Origin: Chrysoperla carnea
Taxonomy: Eukaryota > Arthropoda > Insecta > Neuroptera > Chrysopidae
DNA length: 64,000 nucleotides
NCBI RefSeq assembly: GCF_905475395.1
Contig: NC_058337.1
Location: forward strand, 97,582,368-97,646,367
Direction of reading: 5' to 3'
Under the pieces are notes generated by a model. That model searched no databases. It saw nothing but the letters and a program-made list of their open reading frames with translations, and was not told where the DNA came from. This document shows, one piece after another, positions 4,581-39,067 of the stretch; the first letter of the stretch is position 1; each line of letters opens with the position of its first letter. Position numbers and translations under genes: made by a program.

Positions 4581-4582
4581 AT

Positions 4583-11794: not shown

Positions 11795-11875
<81 letters not shown>
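11795..11875. repeat. (TA)n microsatellite
   Basis: About 80 bp of almost pure TA with one TG interruption. Confidence 0.95.
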
Positions 11876-11879
<4 letters not shown>

Positions 11880-14722: not shown

Positions 14723-14736
14723 AAGTAAGTTAGTAA

Positions 14737-15095
14737 CAATAATTTTCATGTAGTTGGCTCAATCACATATGGACTAGACATGATAGGTATGCGATCATCA
14801 TAATCAAATCATTTATTTAAACCATTATATATTAAAACTAAGTACAATTTTATTTTTCATTAATAAAATGCATGACTTTAAACAAAAATCAATCTCTTTC
14901 ATAGAAGTAATGATTTTGTTTATTTAACTTCAGTGATTTTATATTGAATTCATATTTTAAATTCAATCCCATTCTATTGCGTAAATACAAATATTTAGCT
15001 GTACTTGTTCCAATCATTAGGAAATTGTTTGAAAGTATATTTACTTCATCATTATTTTAATTTTTTTTTCAGTGTATTAGAAGGCTGGTTTTTTT
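14737..15095 (+). repeat. Dispersed repeat R2, copy 1
   Basis: Contains CAATCACATATGGACTAGAC, CTTTCATAGAAGTAATGATT and TTATTTAACTTCAGTGATTT, shared with 36853-37208 and 60518-60955. At 14.7 and 36.8 kb it directly follows the SINE-like element, so the two were probably mobilised or duplicated together. Confidence 0.7.
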
Positions 15096-17438: not shown

Positions 17439-20036
17439 TTACTCAACCAATAGATAAATCTGAAATCTGCCTACACATTCATCATTTTGAAAAAACTTAC
17501 AGTCTGATCTAAAACTACCCCTTGGCATGTTTTTTGGAATCGTTGCTCTTAAGTCAAAAACTTTATATTCGCCCTGAAAATTAAATATTGGTGATGATCG
17601 TAGCGAAATAAGTTTTTTTGTTGAAATTAGTTTACGTACCGGATACATTTTACAATCATATGGCATATCTGTTTGTTTAAAAAAATCCTGAAAATATACA
17701 TCAAACTGTGGCATGCTCATAATGTTGCATAAGTCTGCTTTATTCAACTCAACCAATGGAACTTGAATGTATCCATTACCCATTTTTTTATAGTATTTAA
17801 AGGTTATCTACAAAAATATGCAGAGAATTAAATAAAAACAAGTGAAAACAAACAATTGACTGAGTTGATTGTTGAAATACCATGCATAGACAGTGTTGAT
17901 GACTCTGTAACATTGCACATACATACATGTCACACATACATAACTGATATTACCATGCTATACAATTTACGCCTAATTTGCGCCCTCACGGGTAAACAGT
18001 GATATTTACGAAAAAATGTTTGAAACAAAAGTTGGTTTTTTTATAAGGAATATTTTTTACATTTAAACTTTTGTTCTTTCTTTAACGGTTTACAAAATGG
18101 ATCCTACGGACCCATGACCCAAATGACCTTTGTTGCTCATTTACAAACTTGACCATATTTTACGTCCTCAGTACGCTATTTCAGTCAAAAATTTCAGCAT
18201 GATATCTCTATTCGTTTTTGAGTAATCGTGATGACAGACGAACAGACATATGACAGACGACAGATGACAGACGACGGACGACAGACGACAGACGAAAGAC
18301 GATAGACAACAGACGACAGGTGACAGACGACAGACAGCCAATCGGAAATGGACTAATAAAGTGATTTTTACAACTTTACCAAACCTTGGGACTAAACTTA
18401 ATATACCTTGCATATTACATATATGCATGGTATAAAAACTTGGGACTAAACTTAATATACCTTGCATATTACATATATGCATGGTATAAAAATTTAAATT
18501 TTCGATAGGTTTAGCAATGCAATAAACAGTAAAATTGTATAGTTTTATAAGAGACTAAAAATAGAATAAATTCAAATTATTTAGAAGAAAATATCAGCAA
18601 CGTTGCGGTCGTGCCGCGGTCGTGCAAATCACGGAGCAGACAATAGTAAGTCAAATCCAGCTTCCTTATGTTGTTTTTCATGCAGTTAATCTGGACATGT
18701 AACGAAGGTAAGTATTAAAATGTTACTAAAAAATAAGCAAGTTTCTAAAAGGTAATACGAATGCAACCATTCAAATATCCGGTGACGAGAATATGCATTG
18801 GTACGACATAAGTCAAATTGTGAACATTTTTTAAAACACTAGCTAGTCTTCGGAAGATCTTGAAAAGTATTATTATGTTACAAAAAAAATTGAAGGTTTC
18901 GATCAAAAATTCAAAGTAGATTATTACAGTGTTGGCTTTACATTTTGACCCAGATACCAATTTCAACACTCCTTCTGACATCAAACGTAACATTTCGATA
19001 TACACACGTAACGTATTGTTTCCAGATGGTAAAGTTAATATCGAATACCAAGGAAATAAATATCGGGAACAACTATACATTGTCCCAGAAGAGTACGACT
19101 CTCTAGACGGACGAATGTATAAAGCATTTAAATACCTCCAAGTTATTGATGAATCTGGTAAATATTCAAAATCTAGCCCTCAGATTCACGTTGTTTATAA
19201 CATTGACAACAATGGTACTTAAATATCTTAAATATCCAGAACTTTTTGAGGAAAAAGTCAGATATGTTCCGAAAATAAAACTTCGGGAAAATGCAAAGCC
19301 CGTATATTCAAGAGAAAGAGAACTACATTACTAACTTCGCGAGAAAGTCGAGAGGAAAGTAGATATTTGAATCCCTGGACAAGGGAAAGTAGATACAACT
19401 GACGGAGAGTCTTTTTTGGTAGTTATTCCAGACGGAGATTCTGTGTAGACTACAAAATGAGGGTTACTAATTGTCTAGTTAATGCTTACTACCCTATCCC
19501 ACTAATTACTTTTTTTTTAAATAATTACTTTAATTTAAAATTTCATTCATTTCTTAGTTACGACCATGATATTTTACTGGGTATTTAAAGATTAGAAGGT
19601 TAAATTCGATGTCTTTATATATAACTTTTACTCGGCTGTTTATATAAATCATATATACCCTAAACGCTTAGAAAAAAAATTTACCCGGGGGAAAAAATGA
19701 AAACCCTGTAAAATAGTAAATCCACAATAAAGAATTAAGATCGTTATAAATTACCTTTATATCTGTAAGTGGCTGGAAAACCTTTATTTTTCCATGAATT
19801 GTCATCGTTGTTTTATTATATTTAGTCAATTTAAATGATCGTATGTCAAGATATTTCAGAAAATTTTCATCCTGATCGATAGATTTTATAGTTCCGCTCA
19901 CTTCATTACCTATTACGAAAAAAGTGTAAAATTTTAAATTTTTAATTATCATGAGTCACTTTACTTACATTTTAATATGTTAATAAACCTTATAATCAAC
20001 AAAGGCAATAAATATATTAATGGAAAATACTGCATG
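17439..20036 (-). CDS. DUF1091-family secreted protein, paralogue A (4 exons)
   Basis: Spliced model on the minus strand. Exon 1 is 20036-19969, exon 2 19896-19755, exon 3 17807-17640 and exon 4 17573-17439 (stop TAA), giving about 170 aa. Exon 1 begins MQYFPLIYLLPLLII, a hydrophobic signal peptide, and ends at a strong GTAAGT donor. Exon 2 carries DQDENFLKYLD and LTKYNKTT; exon 3 carries GNGYIQVPLVELNKADLC and PYDCKMYP; exon 4 starts GEYKVF and ends with DECVGRFQIYLLVE. This order matches DUF1091 proteins and paralogues B-D. Introns 2 and 3 are clean GT..AG, and intron 3 is only 66 nt. Two AATAAA motifs lie about 26-35 nt after the stop. Weak point: the acceptor with the better pyrimidine tract (exon starting at 19909) is out of frame with exon 1, so I chose the AG before 19896. 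A different first exon is possible. Function unknown; secretion is inferred. Confidence 0.8.
18225..18345 (+). repeat. Expanded CAGACGA-type minisatellite inside R1
   Basis: About 120 bp of irregular ACAGACG/ATAGACA/ACGGACG heptamers. Other R1 copies carry only 10-25 bp of this motif, so the array expanded locally. The ORF at 18168-18482 on the minus strand is the translation of this array. Confidence 0.8.
18380..18492 (+). repeat. 57-bp tandem duplication of the R1 end
   Basis: The block from CTTGGGACTAAACTTAATAT to CATATATGCATGGTATAAAA occurs twice back-to-back with essentially no differences, indicating a recent duplication. Confidence 0.85.
18757..19334 (+). pseudogene. Frame-broken coding remnant, unrecognised
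   Basis: Three consecutive protein-like stretches in different frames. The first (18757-18948) is interrupted by two in-frame stops and includes GDENMHWYDISQIVNIF, later KKIEGFDQKFKVDYYS. The second (about 18938-19222) includes YTRNVLFPDGKVNIEYQGNK and REQLYIVPEEYDSLDGRMY. The third (about 19208-19334) includes KYPELFEEKVRYVPKIKL. Each change moves the reading frame by one base in the same direction, as small indels in one ancestral ORF would. Base composition is less AT-rich than the flanks. It lies antisense inside intron 2 of paralogue A. I do not recognise the family. A decayed mobile element or an endogenous viral fragment are both possible, and neither is shown. Confidence 0.5.
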
Positions 20037-20845
20037 CTACAATTGTTCAATTTATGCACATTATTGAGCCAGGATACAATTATTGAGCCACTGCTTTTTG
20101 TACTATAATTTTATTTATTGCGTGACTGAGATGCTGATTGTATATTTATTTATATAGCAGGTATTACTTTAAAAAACAAAATTTGTATAAATAATACGGA
20201 AACAGATAAAATAGATACAGATAAAAGATATGCTTTGATTATTTTCTGTTTTGATGGGAGATCAAAAATTTTATATGAAAAGTCGTTTCACAACATGAAT
20301 ATTCCAATGTTTACAAAAAGTACAATAAATATTTTTGAATTTTTAAAAATATATCCTTCGTGATTTCCAACTACTATTCACTTTATTTTTAATAACTTTA
20401 CTAATGATCAAAATTTCTAGTTTCTTAATATTAACCCGTCAACATTCCCGTCAACCGTTCGGTAATATTTAGTCCCGCGATGAGAGACTTGCTGAAGAAT
20501 TATGTTCATGCATCCAATATTTCTAGCGTTAAATACTCATTAATTTCTTGAGTTCGAATTTGAATAAGTAAATAATATTACAACAAAAATGAAAATAATC
20601 ATAATCATATATTCATTAATTATACTATAAATATTTCTTGAATTAGTTCGTTATTTAAAATGAATTCTTTGCATATAAAGAAAGGAATTGTCAATAAAAA
20701 GACGAATTTATATAGAAAAATACACTTATAGGTTATGTACCAGAAAGAATGCTTTCAATAAAAATTATAATATAAATCATAAAAAATTTAATTTCGGCAA
20801 CTTCGTCTGCATATGTTAAACTTAAGATTAAAATTAATTAATAAC

Positions 20846-21421
20846 AAGTGAAAACAAACTATTGAGTGAGTAAATTGTTGAAATACCATGTATAAACAGT
20901 GTTGATGACCCAATCGTTTGATTTTTACGTCATGTAAATAAAGAAAGATATCATTCACTTTTATTAGATAGCCACACACATGTAACTGATATTCCCATAT
21001 AATACCTACTAAAAATTTGGCACCCAATTTGCGCCTTCGCGGATAAACAGTGATGTTTACGAAAAAATTCAATTCAAACAAAATTTTTTTATGAGGAACA
21101 TTTTTTACATTTAAATTTTTGTCTATGTCTAACGGTTTACAAGATGGGTCCTACGGACCTATGTTGCTCATTTACGAACTAAACCTTACTTTCTATGTCT
21201 TAAGCACGCTATAAAAATTTCAACTTGATATCTCTTTTCGTTTTGAGTTATCGTGTTGACAGACAGACAGATGGACACGCAACCGAAATCGGACTAATTT
21301 GGTGATTTTATGAACACCTGTACTAAAATTTTGTTGGTAGCATCAATATTTTCAAGCGTTACAAACTTGGGACTAAAATTAATGTACCTTGTATATATTT
21401 CATATACATGGTATAATTATT
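20846..21421 (+). repeat. R1 repeat family, near full-length copy
   Basis: Same order of landmarks as 17843-18492: AACAAGTGAAAACAAAC at the start, TTTGCGCCTTCGCGGATAAA, AACGGTTTACAAGATGGGTC, GACAGACAGACAG, and an end at ATACATGGTATAA. It adds an AAAATTTTGTTGGTAGCATC segment missing from the 17.8 kb copy. It lies just upstream of paralogue A. Confidence 0.75.
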
Positions 21422-21503
21422 AACTTTTATCGATTACCCATAGAGTGCCCATACTAACCGATTATATCAGCTAAAAGCAACCAATACTACTATTGTGTAA
21501 AAT

Positions 21504-21906
21504 TCCTATATATTATAAATGTGAAAGTAAAGTTGTTTGTTTGTTTGTTACGGTTTTACGCAAAAACTAATTTGACTAATGAATTTGAATGAAAAATGTG
21601 CTATAATTTATAAAGATATATTAAAAGAAAAAAAAAATTTTAATTTGGTCTATGACATTTCACTACGCCAACTATGAGCATTATTTGAACCATAAATTAA
21701 AGATTTCTGTAATAAAATTAATGTCCCAATTCTAATACACTCAATGAATCAAAACTCTAACATTACATATATTTTACCTACATAAAGCAATTCCTAACCC
21801 TATTTTGAGTGTTATGGATGGGGCATAAGTGAGAGCAGGAGATGTGGAAGCCATAACGCGGTGGCTTTTACTTTTAGTCCACATAATCGGGCTGGTATCA
21901 AGCTAG
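21504..21906 (+). mobile_element. Helitron-like non-autonomous element
   Basis: Begins TCCTATATATTATAAATGTG followed by a TTTG run and TTACGG; ends GGGCTGGTATCAAGCTAG. Terminal forms and length (about 400 bp) resemble the 5552-6042 element, although the 5' flank is T rather than A. It lies upstream of paralogue A, between A and B. Boundaries are by termini only. Confidence 0.5.
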
Positions 21907-21909
21907 TTT

Positions 21910-23250
21910 TAATTAAAAATCAACATAATATGAATTACCTGATATCCCCTACAAGTGATTCTACTATCCATTAAAGTTCAAAAAAAAAAGTTCAAATTTG
22001 TCTTCAAAATTAATTATAGATATTTGTTTTAATTATATATCGATCGCACTTGGTTAAAGCTAACTATATCATCCTTGGCATATGAGGGGTTGAAGTAGAG
22101 AGATAAGTCTAAGCAGAGTTGAGGTATTCAAGAGGGCTAACTCAAAAGGGAGTCTATTGGTAAAAGTAGAAAAGCGTCCAGCTGAAAGAATTTAATTTTC
22201 AGAATTGACCAAAATGGCGCTTTTGTAGAAAAAGTGTGCTTGATATAATATTGAGCACTTCTTTCATAATTTACACGCTTAATATAGGTATCCTTTACGA
22301 ACAGCACTTTTTGAGATGGTCCTATTATTTCCAGCGTCCATTGACAAGTTCTTCAATCAAAAGTCCATTGGCTTTCATAATTTGAGAAGTACTTACGTTA
22401 TACATGTTCTATTACACCAAAATTAATGAGAAAACATTGTTTTTTTTAATTCGCAGGGTACACTTTCTAATCTATTTGTGTGCTATTCGCTAGAAACACT
22501 AAGGGAAGATTAAAGAAGCATATGACTTAAAGTTTCCGGCTGGTTCAGAGGAAGGAACATCGATTACACAGGAAGAAATTAAAAAAACTTTTTATACAAC
22601 CAATAACATTATACATATGATAGACATTACAGTCACGAAATACTACAAAATGAATATAGAAAATATGTTAATGAATTTCAATAAAAAATCAGATATCAAT
22701 ATTTATATCAATGTCAAATAAGTAACAGGAAGGATCAATATGACTTTGCTAAACTTTGATCAACACCCGGTAGTTAGTTAATAAGAAAATACGAAACGCA
22801 GAAAAAATTTTAAGTACTAATTTTATAATCAATTTTCCAAAACAAATATCTAAGTCTATGATAGCTGTTTTGCTAATGTTTGCGAAGCCAGTTTTTGATC
22901 TAAATTTTGGTATATGTCCACCTTACTTTCTCACCAAATAGAGATTTTTATAAAGAATGACTTTTAGTCGCAACTTTTAAAAAAAATCCCTTTTACATAT
23001 TATTCTTTTCAAAATATAAATATATTTACAAAAATTTAAATCAAAAATTATTATCATTATAATTAATTTGATTCGTAAACAAATATTTTAAATAAAAAAT
23101 CTTTAAAATATAATTTTCTTATTTAGAGTGGTTAGAACAAGGCTGTCATCTGGTAGCTTCTTTGCGAACTGTAAGCTGCTTCTGAATGAGTATATCGTAA
23201 TAAAGGCCAATATTATATGTAGAGAGAGTAAATCACTTGTGATCCTTCAA
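21910..23250. other. Intergenic between A and B, nothing recognised
   Basis: No ORF or repeat I can name, apart from short A/T runs. Confidence 0.5.
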
Positions 23251-23254
23251 GCAA

Positions 23255-23570
23255 AGGTTTAATATCGCTTTATAAGGCCTCTAAAAGGCCTGACGCTGAA
23301 CGCCTAGACCTGATATCATCACAGTGGGGAGGAGGAAGAAACGATATCTCATCTTCTCTAACACTGTCCAGCTCTTACCATGAGAAGATGAACTCACTTA
23401 AGCCAGTCTTTCTTTGATGATCTCTCCGATCTCGAGTCCATTGACGCCAAAGCTCTCCTGCTATACTTAAACAACTCCAAATGGTTAATGGAGTAGTGGC
23501 CAGGGATGGGTAGATCCTTTTTCGGTATCACAATGGATCCTTTGGTCTAAGTATGTCTAATTTCAGGAAA
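23255..23570 (+). pseudogene. Decayed non-LTR retrotransposon (LINE), 3' end
   Basis: Plus-strand reading gives ETISHLL, a stop, HCPAL, a stop, and then SFFDDLSDLESIDAKALLLY ending in NNSKWLME and a stop. The HLL..CPAL zinc-knuckle-like motif followed by a DDL...L..LN.S.WL tail is the usual C-terminus of Jockey/CR1-like LINE ORF2 proteins. It is followed by GGTATCACAATGGATC...GGTCTAAGT, a typical 3' UTR tail of such elements. Two in-frame stops show it is dead. It sits between paralogues A and B. Clade assignment is tentative. Confidence 0.75.
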
Positions 23571-24048
23571 GAAAATCCAACTCTTATCAAACCTACTTTA
23601 ATTGATCTTCTAACTCTTACCAATCTGGAACTCAAGTCGACTTTTAGTAGCCATTAGATGTCAATGTCAGCTAGCTTTTGTGTGTTAATGTGTCTGCCTC
23701 TTCTTAAATGCAGACTTGAGTCCAACAGACCCATGACTTGAGTACAATAGCTATGGTCTTAGGTTGTTGATTTCAAATACTGCATATTTTAATTGTAATG
23801 TGCTTGCTCATAATCGTCTGTACGAACCGACCCATTGCTGGACCCAACAATATATTTGTTTTAATCTGCAGCTTTGTAGAACATTGTTTCTAGTCCAAGG
23901 TCTTTACGGCATTAAAAAATTATTACCGTTCAAATCATGATATTTTTATGATTTGACAAACATAAAAATTATCACGCAATTCACGTTAATTAATTTAATT
24001 CTAACATTATATTAAAAATGTATAGTGTTGAAAATATTACTCTCCGTA

Positions 24049-27000
24049 ATGAAGTATTTCATGCTAACATTGTTGCTACTATTTTTAAGTCTTCAAATTT
24101 GGGTAAGAGATCAAATAATCATTATAGTTAAGGAGTCTGGCATGCAGCTTAATAAAAAACCACCTGGACTATAACTAGGACAATTAGCCTAGTATATGAC
24201 CTTCATATATCGCAATCAAGTGGTAGTTATATTTTTGTCATGTTTGACTTGGAAAATAATGGAATTTTTTTAAAATTTAAACCACCTGGGCTTTAACAAG
24301 GACAGTTAGATTAGTATATGACCTTTACATATCCCCAGTAACCCTGAGCCAGACATTGTGATCCGGGTTTAAAACTGTTTTATCAAACTGCATCTCCGCT
24401 AACTAAAACTATTGACTAGAATAAAATTTTTCTACTCGACTCATAAAACAACTTTTAGTAAAATAATCTTTCAATGAATTCAAGTAATTTAAATTTTTGT
24501 TACTACCTTAATTAAGTCACTACAAGTAACGGTCATTAAAAACCATCATGGATTATTCACTAAAGTCATTTTAATCTATGCATTAAAAAATGACCTTAAT
24601 AAAAATTGTTGAGTTTGATGGGGGACGTCATGTTCTGACATCAAATAATAGCCAATTTAGATTCTAAACGGTAAGAGATAAAATAACACTTTAAAGGAAA
24701 AAGCAGATCTTCAAAAAAAAAAAAACAACCAATTTTTGATTAAAACGTATTTTCTGAAAAACGTTGGCTTTTGGAGGAAATGCGAATTAAAAATATGTCA
24801 TTATTGCATTTAATCAAAAGCAAATACGATTAAAGTTTATCGATAATTGTAGGCTAAAGTCATGGACACAGGCGAATATCCACTATTGCTCTTGACGACT
24901 TTTGGCTAAAGCCTTTTTCCGTAGTTAGCGTTTTTTCTCGATTAAATGCAATAATCACATATTTTTAAGTCGCATTTCCTCTGAAAGCTGATGATTTGGT
25001 GATAATATAGAAAGGTAATTTATGTGAGATATAGAAAGGTAATTTAAATCATCTCTAGAAGAAAAAAAATCATCTCTGATCTAGAAAATGTGAATCATCT
25101 CATATGGAGTAACAGCCAGACCAAAAAAAATTCGTTGAATATACTAAAGCTGATAATTTGAGGTTTGGTTAAAGTAGTTGTGTACTCACACATACTGTGG
25201 TCAGTCTAGCGAACGATAGAACAGGGGTGTGATATGCTATGGAAACGGTTAAGTTTTACATGGTACTAAAATGAATTTACTAAAGCTGAAAATTGTAATA
25301 TAGCTAGAATATTGCATATAGATAACGGCTACAACAGTCAGTCAGTTAAACGTTAGAACAGGGCTGTTCAGTCAGCCCTTATGAACCCTCTTATGAATGT
25401 ACACAAATAGGGCTGACTGAACAGCCCTGTTTTAACATTTAACTGACTGACTGGTATAATTGTTATCTATATGCAACATACAAACTGTATAACAATTTTC
25501 AGCTTTAGTAAATTCATTTTAGTACTACGTAAAACTTAACTGTTTCGATATGACTGGCCGCAGTATGTGCGTGTACACAACTACTATATCCAAACCTTAA
25601 ATGACCAGCTTTAGTAAATTCAAGGAATTTTTTTTGGCTTGGCTCTTCCATTATGATTGAGGAATAATAAAATAAGACCTTGCAACTTATTTGTCAAAAA
25701 TAAATTCGATCCGACTTCGGCCCCATGTGGCCGAAGCCAAAGTCAGATATAATTATGGTAATATAATAAGTAATCTTTACCTCTATTTTATGTTATATAT
25801 TTAATTTTTTTATACAGATGAAAAAAATACCTAAAATCAAAGGTATCGAGCAAGATCCAGCCTTCCTTAAATGGTATGATATTCAAGACATAAAATTGAG
25901 GAAGTATAACAAGACAACGTTAGCACTCAGTGGAAAATTTATAATAAAACGTCAAATCACTAACATCAAGGTAAACATATGCTTGTTAGAAAATTCTTCA
26001 ATACTCTTTCGCGATACATTATTTAAAATCTACAAGACATCCGAAGAAGACTAAACTGCAACGGTCTATGACTCGTACATAATATGGGCAAGTTGAAATT
26101 TGGGAGGCCCTCTGGTGCCTTGCAAATAAAAAAATACTATTAGAAACTTTTTTTCAATAACTCTAACGTGAAGCAAAGATATACACAAGAAAGACAGAGA
26201 TATATACCATTTTAATATATTATGGCTAATAGCTCGTTTTGTAGATACCTATATAACGCGATTTCAGGTACCTATATAACGCGAATAGTGCGCCCTAAAA
26301 AAGGGTTTTTTTTACGATTCCAAGATCACATGTTTTTAAATCACTTCCTAAAATGTATCATCACATTAAACTACTATCTACTCTTAGATCGATTCCTCTT
26401 CTATGCTAAAGTTAAAAGCTCTTCTAAAAGTTTATAAATTAAAATGTTTATTTCAGAAACTACGATTGTGTTTTTAGTAAACCGTTGCGCGTTAAAGCTT
26501 TCTAAACTTTTAATACAAGCTACCAATATAATTTTTATAAACCCTAAGAAATGGAGCTTCCATTTGAAATTGTTAAAAATGACCTACACATGGCGCTTTA
26601 AGATCATTCAAACAACATACGAATTGTATGGTTACTAAAAGTTTTTTGAACATTGATATTTTTGTCTCAACATTTTTGATTAAATGGTCGGAACCCTTTT
26701 GTTACCTCTGTCACACACGATAGAAACCAATATATATTTTTTTTTTTTAGTACAGTCTCAAATTAGGTCGAAAAGTTGGTTCATCATACTTACCAATACC
26801 ATTAGTAACTGTTAATAAAGCTGATTACTGTAGTTTTTTGGAAAATCCACATATACGGCCTATGATGGAAGATATGTTTAACCACACAAATTTAAAATAT
26901 AGTTGTGATCATAAACCAGTAAGTGTTAAAATAATTTTAACGTAACGGGGTGTTTTGTAAACAGTATTTTCTGCACTTTTATCAGAAATGTATGCTCAAT

Positions 27001-27777
27001 ATCTTTCTTGAAAATTAGTTTGGGAAGATCATAATCTTCGAGAAATATTCCTCAATAAAAGTTATTTACAGACATTCGCAATTATTATTATTAAATTTCT
27101 AAAGTTACTTAGATCATTCATTTTTCAAATAAACAATACATTCAAAAAGTATGTGGACAGTTCCAGAACTGGAGAAAGCACTTTGTTTTTGCCTATCTAT
27201 TGAAATGAAAAGGGCATCCCCTCATAATTAAAACTTACACAAAGTGATGAAAAATAATAATATATTTTACATGAAATTACCATGCGAATTCTCCTTTTTT
27301 GCGATTGTCGACAATTTCCTTAGAGTCGAAAAACTTATTGCATTGCAAATAAACATCTTCATAATAATTTCATCTAAATAAAATATTCCAAAATTATTTT
27401 TCATAAAGTTTTATAAAATTATTTCAAATAAGCATCTACATAAAGGAAAGTTCATTGAAATAAACTAATAATAAAATAATTTTTTTAACAATTTCGAAGA
27501 AGTTTTTTTTTTTTTTGCTATTGCGGAGTCGAAAAAAACTACTTTTTATTTCAATTATTTCTATAAAATGAGGGTGTCTTCATCTTAAATGCGACACGTC
27601 TGGTTGTTGTTTTAATTTTATATTATTGTGTTTTAGGGAGAATATCAAATCAGTAATTACGTGCCACACATACCATCAGAATTACCACCTGGAGATTATC
27701 GAGGTGAATATTCTCAGTATTTTGAGGATGAATGTATTGGGAAAATTCAATACAATATAGCATGGATTGAAATTTAA
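24049..27777 (+). CDS. DUF1091-family secreted protein, paralogue B (4 exons)
   Basis: Spliced model: exon 1 24049-24102 (18 codons), exon 2 25818-25970 (51), exon 3 26751-26918 (56), exon 4 27637-27777 (46 plus stop TAA), total 171 aa. All junctions are phase 0 with GT..AG borders (donors GTAAGA, GTAAAC, GTAAGT). Exon 1 encodes the signal peptide MKYFMLTLLLLFLSLQIW. Exon 2 holds KGIEQDPAFLKWYD and RKYNKTTLALSGKF. Exon 3 holds LPIPLVTVNKADYCSFLENP and ends YSCDHKP. Exon 4 holds GEYQISNYVP, then PPGDYRGEY, close to the GdYr signature near the C-terminus of DUF1091 domains. The two exon 3 cysteines are shared with the other copies. AATAAA signals occur at 27796 and 27805. This is the cleanest model in the window. 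Intron 1 (1.7 kb) contains two foldback elements. Role unknown; the family has been proposed to resemble GM2-activator/MD-2 lipid-binding proteins, but nothing here shows a ligand. Confidence 0.93.
24768..24988. repeat. Foldback element, short arms (intron 1 of paralogue B)
   Basis: GGAGGAAATGCGAATTAAAA through GCATTTAATC at 24772-24818 pairs with GATTAAATGCAATAATCACA through ATTTCCTC at 24940-24980. The spacer is about 120 bp. Confidence 0.75.
25114..25642. mobile_element. Foldback/MITE element with arms of about 250 bp (intron 1 of paralogue B)
   Basis: Left arm 25114-25379 and right arm 25409-25642 are reverse complements over nearly their full length; AACAGGGCTGTTCAGTCAGC against GGGCTGACTGAACAGCCCTG marks the inner end. 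The loop is about 29 bp. The left arm has an extra 30 bp or so that resembles its own inner end (CGAACGATAGAACAGGG). No ORF. Transcribed as part of paralogue B pre-mRNA it would make a long hairpin. Confidence 0.85.
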
Positions 27778-27795
27778 AATGTTTTTAAATGTGTG

Positions 27796-27810
27796 AATAA
27801 AATTAATAAA
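27796..27810 (+). promoter_or_regulatory. poly-A signals of paralogue B
   Basis: AATAAA at 27796 and again at 27805, about 20-30 nt after the stop codon. Confidence 0.65.
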
Positions 27811-28203
27811 GTCATATAATATTTCAAAATATCTTTGCTCGATAAGTAAAAATTCGTTGAAAAAGTACGAAAAATACAATACCTTACAATACATTTTTAA
27901 GTTATTATGTTTTCAGGGGAGTTAAATTCTTAAAAAATTTCGGAACAAATTTAGCTTAAGATCAATTGACAATCACCAGATTTTGATAAAATTTGCTTTA
28001 GCACAATAAATGTTGCCTGCGTATAAGAAGGAACAACACAGAAGATAGGTAAATGGCAGCCTTGTTTCAGCTCTTATTTAGTTTTAATCTCTCTAGATAT
28101 TAACTCCTAAGTTGATTTATGGATGGATTGAAGAATGTTACTTGCGCCAAACAGACAGGCTGATCAAGAAGCACATCAACTATTGCTATTTTAAACCATT
28201 TAT

Positions 28204-28746
28204 ATAGGAAATATACCAAGGTATATTAAGTTTAGCCCCAAGTTTGTAATGCTTAAAAATATTGATGCTACGAAAAAAATTTTGGTATGGGTTTTCATAC
28301 AATCATCTAATTAGTCCATTTTCGGTTGTCTGCCCGGCCATCCGTCTGTCAACTCGATTACTCAGAAACGAAATATGATATCAAGCTGAAATTTTTACAG
28401 CGTACTCCGGACATAAAAATGAGGTCGAGTTCGTAAATGGGCATCATAGGAAAATTGAGTCTTGGGTCCGTAAGATCTATTTTGTAAACCGTTAGAGACA
28501 GAACAAAAGTTTAAATGAAAAAAATGTTCCTTATCAAAAAATAAACAACTTTTGGTTGAAACATTTTTTCATAAACATAACTGTTTTCCCGAGAGGGCGC
28601 AAATTGTATAGTATGTATTATGTGGGAATATCAGTTATGTATGTGTGACATGTATAGATATATGTGCAACGTGATAGAGTAATCAACACTATTTATACAT
28701 TGTATTTCTACAATTAACTTAGTCAATTATTTGTTTTCACTTGTTT
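28204..28746 (-). repeat. R1 repeat family, minus-strand copy
   Basis: Minus-strand reading begins AACAAGTGAAAACAAATAATTG (at 28746) and ends at TATACCTTGGTATATTTCC near 28210. It includes AACGGTTTACAAAATAGATC and GACAGACGGATGG. It lies between paralogues B and C. Confidence 0.72.
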
Positions 28747-28984
28747 ATTTAATTTTATGTGTAGATTACATGAAAGCTGGTACGCTACTTATTTTGTGAC
28801 ATCCGGATCCTATAAATTAAAATATTAAAAAATTCATAATATTGTATCATGTTTCACGCAAAAACTTCACTTTTTTTAGTGACACGCAATAAAAATTATT
28901 CGGAAATGTAACTAAAAAAACATATAAACTGACTTTCATTTAATTAGTTTTTTCCAAGAACAGAACTATATTCCAACATTGATT

Positions 28985-31907
28985 ATGAATTGGATTTTAA
29001 TAACTTTTAAATTCTTGTTACTAGGGCAATTATTTATAGTAAGTTAGCTTTGTAAAATAGCTTTGAAAATTTTTCCTGATCATTTATTGTTTTCATCACT
29101 TAGGAGGTACAAATGGTTCCAAGGATCAAAGGCATAGTTCAAGATCCAAATTTTATGGAGTATTATGATACATCTGGCGTAAAAATTACTAAGTTTAATA
29201 AAACAACCTATGCTTTAACTGGTAATTTTGTCATTAAACAACGCTTGGATCATCTTAAGGTAATTTTAACAATAAAAATAACAAAAATATCACACGGAGA
29301 ACTTTTAAACGATTGGCATAAAATAAATTATACCAGTTGACATTGTACCTAGCAAAGCCTAGAGATTATTATTATATTTTCTAAAGTGGGTTCGAAAATC
29401 ACATAAATGTAAATTTTTGTTCCCTATAATTAGGTAACATAGTTTATCTCAATGAAAAATGCTAGAGGTAGGAAGCCTTTTCCAGAAGGCACACTGAATT
29501 GAGAGACTTTTTATAACAACATATCCAAGAACCAAAAACATTTCGGGATACAAGGGCATTATTATTCTTAATATTAATATAGTTAACAAACCCGAATGCA
29601 TGGAAAACATGGGAAATTACACCGATTTTAATGAAACTTTTTGTAACATGTTTATAGTACCCCAACATTAAGTCAACTTAACTTGTCTGAGGGCCCCCAT
29701 TCTCAAATATTAGGATATGCTAAATTTAATTTGATTTACTTTGGGGCGTTTTGTCACTCGGATGAGGCAGTTACCTCAGAGTAATTAGACCTCAAAGTGG
29801 AAAACGTCACATCAAAGACATTTTTTATATTTATTTTTCAGAGAATCATTAATATTTTATTAAGAACAAGTGAAAACAAACAATTGACTGAGTTAATTGT
29901 TGAAATACCATTTATAGAAAGTGTTGATTATACTGTCACGTTACACATACATATATGTCACACATACATAACTGATATTCCCATATAATACATACTATAC
30001 AATTTGCGCCCTCACGGTTAAACAGTGATGTTTACGAGAAAATGTTTCTGACAAAAATTGTTAATTTTTTTATAAGGACATTTAAACTTTTGTTCTATCT
30101 CTGACGGTTTTCAAGATGGGGCCAACGGAACCAAGATCCAATTGACCTATGTTGCTCATTTACGATCTCCATCTCACTTTTTACGTCCGTGATGTATAGT
30201 TTTCCAAATTGGAATTTATTGGAACTAACAATCACACTTTACACACCGTGAGTACGCTAATCCCATAGTAACTATTTCTCGGAATCTGAACCTATGATGG
30301 ATATTTTCAAATCGAAAGCATTTTTAAAGTTTTTGTATGTTCACAATATCTTGAGTAAGTCACAAATAAGTGTAAAAATACAATAAATAATAAAGTTTCG
30401 TATTTGGTTATTATAATTACTTTATCCAATTTATTTATCTTTTTAATATGTTAAGTTTTTATTAATAATTTTAGTTCAGTGTAAGTATGGCTAAGAAAAT
30501 GGGTAATGGATATATACCAATGCCAGTCATCGAAAAAAGTGATTATTGTGGAACACTGAAAACACCGGCTATAAAGCAACAATTTGAAGATTTATTTGCT
30601 CACACAACTATGCCATTCGGTTGCGAGCATGAACCAGTAGGTTTTATTTAATTTTAAAACTTTTCATAATACATAGACGCTAAGTACGGAAATCGCAATT
30701 AAAAAATGCCAAAACTAGGTACGTTTTAGGTGTTAATTAGGTACCAAAGTCAGAAATTAGGTGATTTGTAACTTACAAGGCAACTCCATATTCAAAGTTG
30801 CGTTGCTAACATTATGTGAAGCTAGCAACGCAATGAAAATAATAATGAAATAATTGATTCATTCATTTTAGCATTATATGATGCTAGGCAATGCAACTTT
30901 GAGTTTTGAGTCGCGGTGTAAGTTACCTTATTTCTGACTTTGGTATCTAATTAGTACCTAAAAAGTGCCTAATTTTGGCATTTTTTAAATGCGATATCCG
31001 TACTTTACGTCGCTGGCGTTCAGATTCTATGTTAGTGCTTTTTTCAACATTTAAAAAATAAAATACATGTTAATTCCCTTTTGTTTTCTCAGATCGATTG
31101 CAGAGAGTCACTCATTGCTTGAACATTTCAAAAAACAGCTTTACCCTTGAAAACTCATTCTAAATCACCCTTCCCCTCTTTAATACCTTCGATATGCCTG
31201 ATAAATATCCCTAATTTTAAAGTTATTGATCCTTAAACCCTTAACTAATGAGACTTGGAAAAAAATATATAATGAATTTTTTTAGTGAAGAAAAGATTTC
31301 TCTTTGCTCTGAAAGTAAGACTATTCGCGACACTCTGTGTATACATCATGAAATTCGCTATGAGAATCAAACCACCGAATTACTTCATTCAAGAATATGT
31401 ATTCGTACGGCAGTTCTGTATCATTCAAATATTTATATAATCCACTATAGATATTTGAATAATCTAAGAGCAACTTTTTATTCTAAGTAGTACCCTTTTT
31501 ATTCTAAGTAGTACTTTTTATTCTAAGTAGTGTTGTTGTATCAGCTATGAATTTAATAACTCTATTTATGGCTTAAATTTTACTAAATGTCGGGTTTCCG
31601 AGTTGAAAAATTTTCTTAATAAAGTCTATTTATTCGGATTATTTGTTTGTGTCTAGTTGTAAAACTCGCACATCAATAAGAGTTTTGTTAACCTAAAAAA
31701 TTTTGTATTAATATGTTCATTTGTATATATCAATTTGCTCATTTTTATAGAAAGCAATTATTTTATTTTTAGGGTGACTATAAAATCCTGGATTATGTAC
31801 CTAAAATGCAGCCAGGGTTTCCACCTGGAGAATATCGTGGTGAATTTACATTCTACCATGATCATGAAACGCTTGGTATAATTAGATTTTTCATTGTTTC
31901 TAATTAG
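28985..31907 (+). CDS. DUF1091-family secreted protein, paralogue C (4 exons)
   Basis: Spliced model: exon 1 28985-29038 (18 codons), exon 2 29104-29259 (52), exon 3 30475-30636 (54), exon 4 31773-31907 (44 plus stop TAG), total 168 aa. All introns are phase 0 and GT..AG; intron 1 is just 65 nt. Exon 1 encodes MNWILITFKFLLLGQLFI, a signal peptide with exactly the same codon count as in B. Exon 2 has KGIVQDPNFMEYYD and TKFNKTTYALTGNF. Exon 3 has GNGYIPMPVIEKSDYC and ends GCEHEP. Exon 4 has GDYKILDYVP and PPGEYRGEF. B and C are head-to-tail with only about 1.2 kb between them and are alike through exon 2, which suggests a tandem duplication. AATAAA lies at 31990, 83 nt after the stop. Intron 2 holds a broken R1 copy and intron 3 a foldback element. 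C keeps the two exon 3 cysteines. Confidence 0.93.
29866..30260 (+). repeat. R1 repeat family, truncated or chimeric copy
   Basis: Starts AACAAGTGAAAACAAACAAT and follows the family up to about 30190, where TTTTCCAAATTGGAATTTATTGG interrupts; a short R1-like GTGAGTACGCTAAT follows. It lies in intron 2 of paralogue C. The ORF at 29797-29988 is part of it. Confidence 0.65.
30685..31012. mobile_element. Foldback/MITE element (intron 3 of paralogue C)
   Basis: Left arm (AGTACGGAAATCGCAATTAA, GGTACCAAAGTCAGAAATTA, AACTCCATATTCAAAGTTGC) pairs with the right arm (GCAACTTTGAGTTTTGAGTC, TTTCTGACTTTGGTATCTAA, GATATCCGTACTTTACG). Arms are about 150 bp with a small inner palindrome. No ORF. Confidence 0.82.
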
Positions 31908-31989
31908 AAATACGTTAATAATGATGTAATGAAAATTCAAAGCATGTGTTTTTAAAAACATACAGTATATTTAATTGGATCCATGATTA

Positions 31990-31995
31990 AATAAA
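31990..31995 (+). promoter_or_regulatory. poly-A signal of paralogue C
   Basis: A single AATAAA 83 nt after the stop codon, giving a short 3' UTR. Confidence 0.55.
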
Positions 31996-34422
31996 AAACT
32001 TAAGTATAAATTAGTTTTTTTAAATAAATATTTTCCTATCCTTACTGCGATATCCTTTTTTAGTCAATCGGCGGTTGTACGTGATATATGCAAATAAATG
32101 TAACTCGGTTATTAAAAAAAGACCCAGGAAATATAAAAATTTTCAGAGACAGAAAGGTGATTCCACCAAAATGACTTCAGCAGCTCAAGAGATGAGCCAG
32201 ATATATATTTAAATGGAAGCTAGCCCAGAGGTGGATACTTACACATTAATATGATCGGACTTGTTCTGGCAAATCAATTAAGCTCGCTTAAAAACTATGG
32301 GTTAATGAAAATATCTACTTGGCATAATCTTACTCATTCTAGCATGAAAACTGTCTCAAGATTTGCTATTCTTAAGGCTCGGAAATTGTTTATTTTGTGA
32401 CAGCAAGAATGTTATGATTCCATATTGCAAAAGGCGCTATTTTGGCGATAACCCCAACAGGGTTACCCGTTGCTTACATAGAAGTGGAAATTAAGCGATT
32501 TTGTTGATTCTATCAATTTTAACAAATACTCTTTTTATTTCAACATTGAAATGACATGGCTTTTTATGCTAGTAACGATCGTAAAAAATTAATAATATTT
32601 TTGCGTACATCCGGGGATAGGCATTGTGGAAGCAAGGTAAAGGGACTAAAACTACGATATTCTATACTACTGAGAGTAATTTTTTTCGGACTATCATTCG
32701 GAATAAAAATCATTTATTTAACAAAAAAATGATCATAGAGTAAAAATATTCAAAAAATAATCCTACCTCGACGGATGTCGATAATAACATAGTCAGAGTT
32801 GTGGAAGCTTTCTTGGCTACTAGCTCGATAAATGGATATAAAAAATTTAATCGTTAATTTAATGTTTCTTGGAATACACTGTTGGAAAAGGACGAATTTA
32901 TTTAGGATCATAAACTTAACTTGTAGAAATCTTATGGGGGATATTAATAAAACTTTCTCTTTTCTTAAGTAATTTGTATAATATTTCGATCAATCTCATT
33001 CGATATAAGGTAATTTTGACCCAAAAAGTACAAAAATCAGGTACATTTGATGACTGATAGTTTTTGAAATACGGACTAAAATCGATTCAAATATTGCGAT
33101 TTCTCAGAAACTCTGCATCCAATCATTAAATTAACCTGATTTTTATACTTTTTGGATCAAAATTACCCCATCCATCATGTTTCATCAAATTCCAAAACCA
33201 AAATTTTGTTTTCGTTTTTTTAAATTTTTCCAAAGGGGTACCGGGGCAAAAAATCGAGAAATTTTTTTCATCTCCGATTTCGATAAAACTCAGTATATAA
33301 GGTAATTTTGACCCAAAAAGTACAAAAATTAGGTACATTTGACGACTGGTCGTATAGTTTTTGAGATACGGACTAAAATTTAAATTGAATTTGTAAAACT
33401 TGAAAAGGAATATATGTACCATGTTTTTGTATAAAGCTTATAAATTTTAAGAGTTTCTTATAAGTTCTACCTTACATTTTTTAATTTTCAATTGTGACAA
33501 TCTTTCAATGTAGGATACAATCTGCAGATCTGAATTATTATACGATGGCAAAAAATAAAAACCACACATATGTTAGACCACGAAGTCATATTGAATTTTT
33601 AACGGCTCAAGCTCTATACAAGCTCTTGATCGATGTAGGCATTCGAGGATCGAATAAACCAGGTCGAACACCAGCGCTAGTTTAAAAGTCAAAATAAATA
33701 TAACAAGTCAACAACTTTATTACAGGCCATTTTTTGATCTAATAATATCCTGGATTATTTTTCCAAGAGAATCAAACTTTTGAGGCGCCCTATGTAGAGA
33801 AAATTCTTAATATAGTGACAAAAACCCTAATCACCAAGATTTCTGATTCAGACAACGAATCAACGAATTTTTTTCAGTTTATAGTTGCAGAACAATTTTC
33901 ATGAAGAGTAAAAATTTAGAGGTCGCAAGAATCTATTAATATACGTGTGTATACGTATAACATACAAAGCATCTATTGTTCGAAACTGACAATGATCTTT
34001 TGGGCCCAGCACACAGAGTAGTTGTTACCCACCGATACAGAATGACTACATAGCTACTCAGCAAACGTAGATCGTACGTCTTCGGGTTTTTTCAATTTAC
34101 CATATAAAAATTATACTACATAGTACGTACAACAGATAAAACATCTTGAGGAGCAAAAATGACAAATTTTTTAGAGTTTGAGAAAGTTGTATTATTGCAA
34201 CCCACGATTAAACCCTTTTTAATCTTCATCTCACAGCCAAAGGAACATGAATATTGAATAAAAATTTCATTCAAGCTATTCAATGGTTTAAATTGGATAA
34301 CATCCAAGCTCTGATTAAAATAAAATCAATTTTAATAGTTCAATAAAAAATAAATATTCGCAAAGAAATATAATTTCTGAATTGATAAATATGGGGAATT
34401 ATACATCAAAACTAAATATTCT
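31996..34422. other. Intergenic between C and D
   Basis: C and D converge here. Contains repeat R5 (33000-33385) and a 63-codon ORF at 33494-33685 (ends VGIRGSNKPGRTPALV) that I could not assign. 33990-34085 is slightly GC-richer but non-coding. Confidence 0.5.
33000..33385 (+). repeat. Dispersed repeat R5 with internal direct and inverted copies
   Basis: AAGGTAATTTTGACCCAAAA occurs at about 33007 and again at about 33300. An inverted version (ACTTTTTGGATCAAAATTAC) lies at about 33149. A related block is at 44985-45245. The minus-strand ORF at 33126-33422 lies within this repeat and is not a gene. Confidence 0.6.
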
Positions 34423-36258
34423 TCAATTAATCAATGTAACAAATAGTTGACAACCAGCAACAGTGATGTAATTTTTGATAAACAATAAATCCAATCGCCA
34501 TTCCCTACCTGGAACAAATGGTGGAAAACGTTCTGCGTTTGGTCTATAATTTGTTATGTTATACACACCCTGAAAACAAAATTTCTACAGTAATTAAGCT
34601 TAAAATTTTATTATTTTATTTGTACTTACAGGCTCATGTGGACAAGTAAACGGCATATCGGATTGGCTAAAAAAATCTTTAAAAATGTTAAATCGATCGG
34701 ATAATACTGTTGGACATAACGGTTCATTTTCATATCTGCATAACGATGATGGAGTATAACCGTTCGCCAACTTTTTATTCAAAAAAATACTTATCTGAAA
34801 TCGTAATTATTTCGCTTAGTATTTAAAATAAAATATAAAATATAGAATTAAGGATATTGTTACCATCATGTCATCCGTTTCTGCTTGTTTTATTTCAACT
34901 GGACCATTTAATGCGTACATAGACTTGCTAACTTTTACCATTTTAAAATTTGTTAAATCAATGAAATCATTAGTTTCATTTAAAATTCGAAAACCTCTTA
35001 TTTGAATTTCATAAAAATTCTAAAAACAAAAGACTTTTATAGAATACAGTGCCGCTTATTTGTAAAATAGAAAGCCGATAGATCTCTCAAGAAGCATAAA
35101 ATAAGTTCGTATGAATTTCCATATTGTTCGTTGCATGAATATTTTTAAGCATTACAAATTTGGGACTAAACTTAGTATACCTTGATATATTTCATATACA
35201 TAAAACCATACACGGTGCGGAACCATAAACTCGTACTTGAAACATATCTAAGAACACTCTCCATTAAATAACCCTTTTCTTTAAAGCCTACTCCAAAATG
35301 AGCCGATTTCGAATATCATCGCCATTTTTTTAGTTTTTCGGGTGCGGAACCCTCAACTTGCGCTTGAAACATAGCTAAGAACACTCCCCATTATATTACC
35401 TTTCGTCGAAACAAAAAAATCAAAATCGGTTTACCCGTTCATGAGCTACGATGTCACGAACAGACAGACAGACGGACACACACACATAGCGGTCAAACTT
35501 ATAACACCCCATTTTTTAGTTCGTAGGTAAATAAACAACTTTATCAATACCAATTTCTCATTTTTTCTCAACACAATAAGAGCGGCTATTGCTGAGCAAG
35601 CAATGGGCATCCAATGAAATTAATTTTTTTGGATACATAAAATGAAATTGACCATTAATTTTTTGACCATGTTAAAGGTCAAATGGATGGTCAAAACATA
35701 TTTAAATCATTTAACTTTTAATTGCCTCTCTTTAACTAAATTACAATTAATTACTCTGGCTCAATTTCACCAAATTGTGCAAGGCAAGCTAATGAGATAT
35801 TTAGAGATTAATAAATTTATCTTTGAAATAAATAATAACAAAAAAATTGTAATTACTTAATTTAGCTTCACGAAAACGACCTTGAAAATGTTTGGTAAAA
35901 ATGTGTAAAAGAGATTTTTATCACTGCAAAATTAATTTAAATGAAAGATCCATTCTGATCAATGTTTGGGCCAACGATGTTTTCTTCTAAATGTTTTAAA
36001 GTACCAGCGATATGGAAGAAAATAAATAAATATTGGGCTAATAATGAGAATATACTTTCCGATTTAAAATCTTTTAGTTAAATTATCATTCAGTTTTTAA
36101 TTGTCTTACAAACTACATTACAACTACCACACTGTGCAAATAAAACGTTTAAGTGATTTTTAAGATAAAAATATTTTCTGCTTAAAATAAATAATTACCA
36201 AAAATTTTAAATTACTCAAATAAATTAAAAGTGTTAATAACAATTTGAAATAATACAT
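34423..36258 (-). CDS. DUF1091-family secreted protein, paralogue D (4 exons, divergent)
   Basis: Spliced model on the minus strand: exon 1 36258-36199 (20 codons), exon 2 35019-34864 (52), exon 3 34794-34630 (55), exon 4 34569-34423 (48 plus stop TGA), total 175 aa. All junctions are phase 0 with GT..AG borders; introns 2 and 3 are short (69 and 60 nt). Exon 1 encodes a signal peptide starting MYYFKLLLTLLIYLS. Exon 2 differs from the other copies but keeps the layout: DFIDLTNFKMVKV, then SMYALNGPVEIKQ. Exon 3 has NKKLANGYTP and DMPFTCPHEP. Exon 4 has GVYNITNYRP, FPPFVPGREW, and a longer tail with an extra cysteine (TVAGCQLF). It is the most divergent member and points away from A, convergent with C. 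The poly-A signal is weaker (ATTAAA about 90 nt downstream). Start choice rests on the signal peptide and the donor at 36198. The 3' end is firm; exon 1 is slightly less so because intron 1 is 1.2 kb. Confidence 0.88.
35132..35205 (+). repeat. R1 repeat family, 3' fragment
   Basis: ATTTTTAAGCATTACAAATT, TGGGACTAAACTTAGTATACC and a TTTCATATACAT end match the last 70 bp of R1. It sits in intron 1 of paralogue D and is followed at 35215-35520 by another repeat type. Confidence 0.6.
35215..35525 (+). repeat. Repeat-derived block in intron 1 of paralogue D
   Basis: GTGCGGAACCATAAACTCGT and GTGCGGAACCCTCAACTTGC are two diverged tandem units (about 125 bp apart), each followed by GAAACATAGCTAAGAACACT-type sequence. 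After them come a CAGACAGACAGACGGACACA tract and a TTATAACACCCCATTTTTTA end. Typical of an insect dispersed repeat; no coding. Confidence 0.55.
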
Positions 36259-36577
36259 GATTGTATTATTTTGGAAACATATAGTAAATTTTAAGCATTA
36301 AGCCATATTTGCCTTGCTAATTATCTAAAAACCGGACGTAATATGATCATCTCCTTTCATGCATATTAAAAAACATTGTTACATGTTTTCGATCAATTTA
36401 TTAACATGATACCTAACAATCTGATTGATGTATATGGTTTTTGGAGGCCAGCCTTACAATTTTCTGATTCAATTTAATTATAGTAGGGTAATAGGGTAGT
36501 AGGCCATAGTTTCTCGACATATATCGTTTTCTATAAAATAGAACCGAAGAATACAATAAAATGAAACACTGAAAAAC

Positions 36578-36850
36578 ATTCTTAATGCCAACCAATATGA
36601 GGTTGTCTCAACCTCATCGCGAGATCATATATGGCGAATGGTGCAACGAATGTCATACAACTACCGTACGGGTTTGGGTAGTGAAGTTGACACAAAGGCA
36701 TGAGTTTTGCATCACAGCATAGTTTTAAACAATCTTTTTTTGATTGGTTCTACCACTTATAAATATAATAACAAAATACTAATGTGACTGAGTGTCCTAG
36801 CTCTACAGCTTAACTAACTGCGCTATTGATGCTTGTTATATGTATTTACA
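36578..36850 (-). mobile_element. tRNA-derived SINE-like element, copy 2 (internally deleted)
   Basis: Strongly similar to 14272-14722 in the same orientation (shared GAGGTTGTCTCAACCTC hairpin body, TTTTTTTGATTGGTTCTACC segment and ATAGCGCAGTTAGTTAAGCT A box). It lacks about 180 nt that in copy 1 includes the B box, so it is probably non-functional. Confidence 0.6.
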
Positions 36851-36852
36851 AA

Positions 36853-37208
36853 GAAATACGGTAAAAATGATCAATATTTATTTCAAACTCTTTGTTGACT
36901 GGTAACAACAATCTTCGTGAAGTTTAAAGCAAACGCAAAGAAATTTTCTTTTAATTCATCGATTCGTTTTATTTACACGATTATATATTCCAACTAAGTA
37001 CAATTTCATTTTTCATCAGTAAAATGCATGACTTTAAACTAAAATCAATCTCTTTCATAGAAGTAATGATTTTGTTTATTTAACTTCAGTGATTTTGTAT
37101 CAATGAATTCATAATCCCATTCGATTGTAAATACAAATATTTAGCTGTTCTTATTCAAATCGTTAGGCAATTGTTTGAGAGTATCTTTATTTTATTTCAA
37201 CATGAAAC
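36853..37208 (+). repeat. Dispersed repeat R2, copy 2
   Basis: Near-identical to the 60.5 kb copy over TTTATTTCAAACTCTTTGTT, GCAAACGCAAAGAAATTTTC and ATTATATATTCCAACTAAGT. Ends ATGAAACGGCCAACTTTGGG, then diverges. Confidence 0.72.
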
Positions 37209-37209
37209 G

Positions 37210-38899
37210 GCCAACTTTGGGATGAGATGCCAATAGATGATGGATCCACCTTTGTCTTATAGAATTTTCTCAGATATAACCAAAACTGAGATTCAAATAA
37301 AATATATAAAAATAAATACTCTCTCCGAGTCAAGTATGACTTGCATATATAGAACATAATGATTTTCATTAGATTTTGGATTAAGACAAAACCCCACTTA
37401 TTGTCATTCAATCTTTCAAATTAATACCCACACAAACACATTCTTACACATACTCATATCCAACACACGAAGCTTTTCGCAAGTTAAACTTCAAGAAGAG
37501 TGAAGATACTATAAAATTTCTGAATTCGCTTTCAGGGATAAAAGAATTACTTTCTATTACAGAATTCATAATTCAATCATCATATACAACATACATTTTT
37601 TATATCATTTTTTTTCTTGTTTACATTTTTATTATTTTATGTTATTATTATTATTATAATTTTTTTGTTTGTGTGAGAGAGGTTTTGCTTTTGGTATGCA
37701 TGAACATATATTATTATATTTATACACAGGTATATGTGTTTTTATAAAATTGTTTTAATTGAGAAATATAGTTCAAAGTTATGATAAAATGATGGAGGAT
37801 CATTTAAAGATTGAAACTATTCTGTGTGCTAAGACTGAATTTTTATGTGACTCAATATTTTATACACAAAAAATTTCATTTTGCATTAACCAAGGTCGGC
37901 AAGTGAAAAGAAAGCGTCAGTTCAACATTGTCGATATTTTTATCTTTTGTCATCAATATGTCATTCTTTTAATGAATCACTAATTTTCAATGAATTACTA
38001 AGAATTTTTATATTCGGTTGAGGTCCATGTTAGTCCAACTAAACTTCATTGTTATAATAGGGAATCAAAGAAAATTTATATTACGTGAACCTCTTAATTG
38101 ATTTATTCACCCCAATGGTTCAAATTAGAGTATAATAGAATGACTCGTGTGAAAATTTCAGTTATATTTTACACCCGATGACTTTGGACTGAACTATTTT
38201 TTCTCTTAAATGCAAAGGTTTTGAGTAAATTGTGGTAAAACGTGATAAACCTTTGATTTTTCCAAAATCATCTTTTCTTTACTGCACTTATAAAAAGTTT
38301 TATTCTACCAAAAAAATCTAAATGCCATATAAGTGGCATTGCTGCCTCCTTCAGTAAATTTCACTTGATTTGATGGGAATATTCGTTACTTACCTTGTAA
38401 TATCAATTCTTACCTCTTTATATTTCTCATAATTTATTTGTTAAAAAGGGCATACTATCCACTTAATCTAATTTGGTTATTGATTTCACCTAAAAAGCAC
38501 AATTAATTTTAATTAAAGTGAATATTAGTAGAAATCAATATTATCGTTTTTTTTTTATAGATTTCCTTAGAAACTGATGTAAATCAACTAATTAGTGATG
38601 ATATAAACCTCAAATAGGTACGAGCTGGAGTATTTTAGAGCAAAGATAAGTTCGTCTGTTTTTCTGCTTACCTTTTGCAGCTAATGATACCTTCTATTAT
38701 ATTGTAAAACAAGTAATCAAACAAATTTTCAACACCAGTAGCTCAGTTGGCTCAGTTTCCGCCGTCACAACCAAAATTAATTTAATTAATAGTTTTGATG
38801 GGATGGTGTAGTTGTATGGTATATGCATTAAGGAGGTGTACTTAGGCTCTAAAAATAATTAAGGGGCTGTTAAATGAAATTATCAGAAGAAAAGTTAAT
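37210..38899. other. No gene recognised
   Basis: AT-rich with no coding signal. A tRNA A-box-like GTAGCTCAGTTGGCTCAG at 38739 has no B box within tRNA distance. Confidence 0.5.
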
Positions 38900-38985
38900 A
38901 AAACACATAAATGGTATCACAATGGGCTATATAGCCTAAGTGTGTCCTTCGTGGACAACCAATATAGCCTATTCTAACATAATCA
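38900..38985 (+). mobile_element. LINE 3' UTR fragment
   Basis: GGTATCACAATGGGC..., then CCTAAGTGTGTCCTTCGTGG and a CCTATTCTAAC end. It resembles the tail following the LINE C-terminus at 23510-23560, so it is a 5'-truncated copy of a related non-LTR element. No coding sequence remains. Confidence 0.55.
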
Positions 38986-39067
38986 AGCAAATTAATTTCC
39001 AAATATTCCATTATAAATACGTAGGTGTATAATTATTAATTATGCATAAATAAAAAAAGCAATTCAA

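Follow-up and report, generated by a model that had tools for sequence, protein, structure and literature searches.

Four predicted genes in short exons

The DNA analysed here (the window) is a stretch of 64,000 nucleotides (nt) from Chrysoperla carnea, C1:97582368-97646367 of a genome of 559 Mb in 337 contigs. Between window positions 17439 and 36258 we rebuilt, from the raw sequence, four predicted genes, A (minus strand), B (plus), C (plus) and D (minus), which the initial annotation had described as a cluster of DUF1091 genes. In all four the spliced frame is open, the exon plan and a set of residues are conserved, and the genome contains at least 35 loci of the same family. Each gene has four exons, with lengths of 54-67, 153-156, 162-168 and 135-147 nt for exons 1 to 4, the longest coding exon being of 168 nt. 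The introns, 59-1947 nt long, have GT..AG ends in all 12 cases, and phase 0 applies to 11 of the 12 junctions; only the first junction of A differs (phase 1). The predicted products contain 174 (A), 171 (B), 168 (C) and 175 (D) amino acids. The strands, the coordinates, the limit of 170 nt per exon and the phase 0 at all junctions but one, as first proposed, were in agreement with the rebuilt models. The same is true for the first exons of B and C, both of 54 nt or 18 codons, although this length is not special to them: of the 27 loci of the family with a phase-0 candidate for exon 1, 8 have a best candidate of 54 nt.

Profiles of exons 2, 3 and 4 were built from 26 relatives located outside the window and were run on the 2067 open stretches of at least 20 amino acids present in it. 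The 26 relatives had themselves been found with profiles seeded from A-D and are not fully independent of them; the randomised windows used for comparison faced the same profiles. In the window, the outside-member profiles matched exactly four exon 2s (32.5-57.1 bits), four exon 3s (48.6-58.2 bits) and four exon 4s (34.4-48.2 bits). The next-best window matches to the profiles of exons 2, 3 and 4 reached 13.0, 8.2 and 7.2 bits; 20 first-order Markov windows gave at best 13.2, 16.0 and 12.8 bits, respectively. The explanation that the genes are chance assemblies of open frames in AT-rich DNA was therefore rejected: the exons score 32-58 bits and the randomised windows no more than 16, and we give this explanation practically no probability. 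No fifth gene of the family was recognisable in the window by the exon 2-4 profiles.

Gene A, on the minus strand, begins with a signal-peptide-like exon 1 of 67 nt (19969..20035), located 59 nt from exon 2 (19755..19909; 57.1 bits, this and all scores below being those of the outside-member profiles). Exon 2 follows the phase-1 intron and carries a KYNKT sequon; it is joined to exon 3 (17640..17807, 57.6 bits) and exon 4 with the stop codon (17439..17573, 41.2 bits), and AATAAA motifs lie 26 and 30 nt past the stop. Gene B, on the plus strand, has its exon 1 (24049..24102) 1715 nt from exon 2 (25818..25970, 53.6 bits), followed by exon 3 (26751..26918, 58.2 bits) and exon 4 with the stop codon (27637..27777, 41.3 bits), with AATAAA 19 and 28 nt past the stop. 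In gene C, also on the plus strand, exon 1 (28985..29038) is located 65 nt from exon 2 (29104..29259, 40.9 bits), and exon 3 (30475..30636, 54.7 bits) and exon 4 with the stop codon (31773..31907, 34.4 bits) complete the model. Gene D, on the minus strand, consists of an uncertain exon 1 of 20 codons (36199..36258), 1179 nt from exon 2 (34864..35019, 32.5 bits), which has no NKT sequon, and of exon 3 (34630..34794, 48.6 bits) and exon 4 with the stop codon (34423..34569, 48.2 bits). The candidate AATAAA motifs of C and D start about 80 nt past the stop.

Exon 1 is hydrophobic in all four genes, with a best nine-residue Kyte-Doolittle mean of 2.38-2.98, a measure of hydropathy only and not the output of a signal-peptide predictor. 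Since each strand has about 0.56 exon-1-like candidates (a hydrophobic ATG exon with a decent donor) per 4 kb, the evidence for this exon is weaker than for the others. It is the least certain part of the models, being secure in A and C, where it lies close to exon 2, and less so in B and D.

Some other features were noticed in and around the cluster. A 100-residue open reading frame (ORF) at window 18920-19222 (plus), without a Pfam match, lies on the opposite strand within intron 2 of A. A dispersed repeat of about 350 nt, with copies 65-89% alike, is found in the introns and flanks of the cluster (17815-18161, 20834-21093, 28416-28767 and 29856-30181), and an inverted repeat is located at 25238-25550.

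The family in the genome and its history

Loci of the family were modelled with the exon profiles on 18 + 2 + 3 fetched stretches of the genome. The first-round models allowed phase-0 exons only; exons 2 and 3 were then rescanned in all phases, and other sites were chosen at some loci. At least 35 loci with exons 2-4 were obtained, 28 of them on contig C1, consistent with the initial suggestion of a lineage-expanded family. The first 30 comprise the four genes of the window, 8 at C1:2.34-2.37 Mb, 14 at C1:6.05-6.11 Mb, 2 on C4, 1 on C2 and 1 on C3; the all-phase scan added five (2 on C1 and 3 on C2, with a short exon 2 in two of the C2 cases). Five more loci are incomplete within the fetched stretches, and at least four additional places were matched but lie outside them. 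At the level of single exons, protein searches gave 50 matches with B as the query, 75 with a member of the 6-Mb cluster and 46 with D, many places being common to the searches.

A six-frame search of the whole genome with PF06477, the Pfam model of DUF1091, led to one place among the 14 best candidates, the only ones scored, and this place is none of the spliced family genes. The earlier statement that short exons hide these genes from ORF-based annotation thus holds for A-D and for their relatives. A sizeable family of proteins that are probably secreted and resemble lipid-binding proteins escapes domain searches of open frames (one place against at least 35 spliced loci), and exon coordinates are now on hand for expression work. 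The sole six-frame place (C3:2811571-2811789, plus) is an intronless frame of 149 residues with a DUF1091 score of 31.5 bits, above the cut-off, and is unlike the four-exon plan. We also notice members at C1:6.07-6.11 Mb that are nearly identical (93.5-98.2% nucleotide identity over four exon pairs) to members at C1:137.735-137.745 Mb, about 131 Mb away within one contig; the latter set is partly incomplete, and the likeness may reflect a recent long-range duplication or an assembly effect.

Across the first 30 loci, the two cysteines of exon 3 (C95 and C120, in the numbering of C), K48 and G58 are invariant. Other residues are kept in most loci: N81 and Y83 in 28, G82, Y127 and P141 in 29, and R146 in 26 of the 30. 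An NxT/S sequon is present in exon 2 of 29 loci, D being without it, and the three C2 genes from the all-phase scan have no such motif at that position of exon 2. The exon boundaries are similarly regular. Exon 3 ends four codons past its last cysteine in 30/30 loci, which was not demanded by the search, though the profile favours it. Among the 34 loci of the all-phase scan, the start of exon 3 is in phase 0 in 31 and its end in 33, and the end of exon 2 is in phase 0 in 30. A phase-0 start of exon 2 was chosen in only 27 of the 34 loci, so that the phase-1 first junction of A may have company.

The long divergence of A-D from every relative found would fit the explanation that they are decaying copies of larger clusters, as would the incomplete relatives seen elsewhere, namely one at C1:2357.5-2359.0 kb, whose exon 3 is off-phase, and those near C1:137.74 Mb. 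However, all four frames are open, their splice sites are canonical, and the invariant residues are retained despite the deep divergence. Decay thus appears very unlikely.

Two trees were built, one with 30 members and one with 35. In both, B is the sister of C (support 99/96 and 98/96, respectively), and A-C fall within one clade that also contains the genes at 2.34 Mb, on C4 and at C2:47.7 Mb (100/98 and 100/99), whereas D groups with the gene on another contig, C3 (97/88 and 90/82). The initial description of four paralogues is corrected here in that D is not a sister of A-C. A single tandem clade of the four genes was rejected: judged by the starred branches, the window label needs at least two changes, and the four group together in 0% of the 200 bootstrap trees. 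On the basis of these trees, two old lineages are mixed in the window cluster, which is not a simple tandem array.

The initial annotation had also proposed a fast-evolving family, with the ratio of nonsynonymous to synonymous divergence (dN/dS) as the check. For A-D themselves this comparison is unfit, as dS is 0.99-1.67 in all six pairs, near saturation and beyond the range of a rate test, and a codon model fitted to A-D alone was dropped for its absurd branch lengths. Codon models on relatives gave omega values of 0.32 (5 genes), 0.27 (11 genes) and 0.20 (14 genes), and positive selection as a general rule was rejected on these values. Pairwise dN/dS in the 22 lowest-dS pairs of relatives was 0.30-0.81, with one pair at 1.23. 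In the tight K2 group, 9 of 10 pairs are at 0.30-0.55, and the tenth is the pair at 1.23, whose dS is only 0.08; the other 12 low-dS pairs are at 0.42-0.81. The closer family members are under purifying selection, constrained but loosely, and fast evolution is neither shown nor excluded by these values.

Relation to DUF1091, resemblance to ML proteins and possible roles

With the spliced products, the Pfam DUF1091 model (cut-off 25 bits) gave 34.0 bits for B and 30.0 bits for D; C, with 23.8 bits, was 1.2 bits under the cut-off, and A was unmatched. The predicted PF06477 match was thus found in two genes and narrowly missed in a third. A and C were placed in the family because of their homology to B (identity over exons 2-4 of 0.36 for A and 0.42 for C) and because both have the exon plan of B. 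At E-values (E) of at most 0.05, 16 of 18 members scanned, out of the then 30, matched DUF1091 and 4 matched ML, and all three further C2 genes were over the DUF1091 cut-off. These results are in line with the initial description of DUF1091 relatives with a hydrophobic, signal-peptide-like first exon. The generally low level of the DUF1091 scores looks like that of a diverged branch. Against the Pfam ML model (PF02221, cut-off 22.7 bits), B was over the cut-off (24.9 bits), A just under it (21.7 bits), C lower (14.2 bits), and D had no match. NCBIfam models gave just three single matches at chance level.

Searches of the PDB pointed in the same direction, with weak scores. The three best matches of a profile of 18 members were GM2 activators (E 0.0042, 0.0097 and 0.010). 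In the alignment with the GM2 activator, both invariant cysteines pair with GM2A cysteines, presumably the bonded Cys112 and Cys138, the G.Y and YR motifs align, and the exon 3/4 junction falls between KE and GTYSL. The sole match of B alone at E of at most 10 was a phosphatidylglycerol/phosphatidylinositol transfer protein (E 0.038), which we take to be an ML protein of the NPC2 type. With the four window genes alone, dehydroquinate dehydratases, clearly spurious, were ranked first (E 0.0066-0.014), ahead of the transfer protein (0.023), and for this reason the PDB scores count only beside those of Pfam. Taken together, we file A-D under DUF1091, and their sequences resemble those of ML proteins. 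GM2A, NPC2, MD-2 and Der p 2 are described as proteins with lipid-recognising ML domains (PMC9832027).

The four-exon plan may be ancient. We assume that exon 4 of human GM2A begins at the site between KE and GTYSL (c.427, phase 0). This boundary, together with the alignment at that site and with the constant position of the exon 3/4 junction relative to the last cysteine, would suggest, if the boundaries agree, a single ancestral gene, with these introns already in place, for the DUF1091 genes of insects and GM2A of vertebrates; in this genome it would have expanded to at least 35 copies. We put this forward tentatively, as an idea somewhat more doubtful than probable. If true, it would argue clearly for a common origin in a case where the sequences themselves are only marginally similar, and a gene-structure test of a shared ancestor of the insect family and the vertebrate GM2 activator becomes possible. 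The family is a sizeable, diverged branch of a known kind. By title, no paper among those listed for DUF1091 deals with such a family, and those listed for CheB were on flies, mosquitoes, tsetse and bugs amid many unrelated ones; neither result means that the expansion is unpublished.

We consider it quite probable that A-D code for proteins of the DUF1091 family and that these work like the lipid-binding proteins of the ML/GM2-activator type. The gene anatomy and the conservation are observed; the mechanism outlined here draws on knowledge of the family. Exon 1 would be removed as a signal peptide, leading to secretion, and the mature protein of about 150 residues would fold as a beta cup, with a disulfide joining the two invariant cysteines of exon 3 and, except in D, with the NKT sequon conserved in exon 2 carrying an N-glycan. 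Such a protein could bind a hydrophobic ligand, a lipid or a cuticular hydrocarbon, and carry it between tissues or present it to a receptor outside the cell. The family would have grown by tandem and dispersed duplication, its copies probably differing in ligand, tissue or stage.

Several points weigh against this interpretation. A has no Pfam match to DUF1091 and C falls short of the cut-off, and an E of about 0.005 in the PDB is no proof, given the spurious dehydratases. ML proteins have five conserved cysteines, four of them in two disulfides (according to PMC9832027), whereas only two are invariant over the 30 loci here, though single members may have more. The selection values are those of relatives, not of A-D. 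A relation between CheB and the GM2 activator was proposed earlier (Starostina 2009, cited in PMC2827562 and disputed there). The authors of PMC2827562 state that their data on CheB42a do not support the GM2-activator hypothesis, as CheB42a is secreted and not lysosomal, and report a limited similarity of CheB42a to sulfotransferases. The published objection and the missing cysteines slightly lowered our confidence in this reading, in which a lysosomal co-factor role is not implied.

CheA/CheB are the insect relatives that bear names. A more specific role would be that of the fly CheA/CheB proteins, soluble proteins of contact-chemosensory hairs that aid the detection of cuticular hydrocarbons, perhaps via pickpocket channels. 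By description, Drosophila CheB and CheA are small, secreted, multigene proteins, as is predicted for A-D, and CheB42a, a secreted protein, modifies a DEG/ENaC channel (PMC2827562). PMC5216343 describes five CheB genes of Rhodnius with consecutive codes, recalling a cluster, all expressed in antennae and most of them more in females; CheA/CheB are also named in papers on Triatoma (PMC9801554) and Aedes albopictus (PMC5637092). The five Rhodnius genes, compared by description, differ from the at least 35 related loci found here, several of them dispersed. Pfam searches of the window neighbours matched nothing in eight long ORFs, in two of the six frames of 1-14998 and in all six frames of 36301-51299. 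The last result, no channel being matched there, speaks against this role, as does the fact that DUF1091 is far wider than CheB. A CheB-like role of A-D seems rather unlikely, if conceivable.

The products may instead be secreted lipid carriers that act in another tissue (gut, saliva, reproductive tract, haemolymph or cuticle), their expansion serving diet or reproduction rather than the senses. The same anatomy would be expected, repeated duplication to at least 35 loci suits many secreted families, and ML proteins serve lipid metabolism and immunity (PMC9832027). We regard this as a serious possibility that comes close to being probable.

Other sequences elsewhere in the genome

A search for a carotene desaturase of the fungal type, which marks aphids, gave no match above the cut-off, but two matches of 55 residues. 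Two further observations concern COX1. Near the end of the chromosome-size contig C1 (C1:138886126-138887466, minus) there is an intact COX1 frame of 542 residues without internal stops in the standard code. Its flanks contain AT-rich, bacterial-looking ORFs, and it looks Rickettsiales-like by eye, suggesting a transfer of bacterial DNA or a chimeric assembly. A mitochondrial-type COX1 fragment with TGA codons, insect-like by eye, is located at C2:59569181-59569471 (minus) and represents a nuclear mitochondrial relic.

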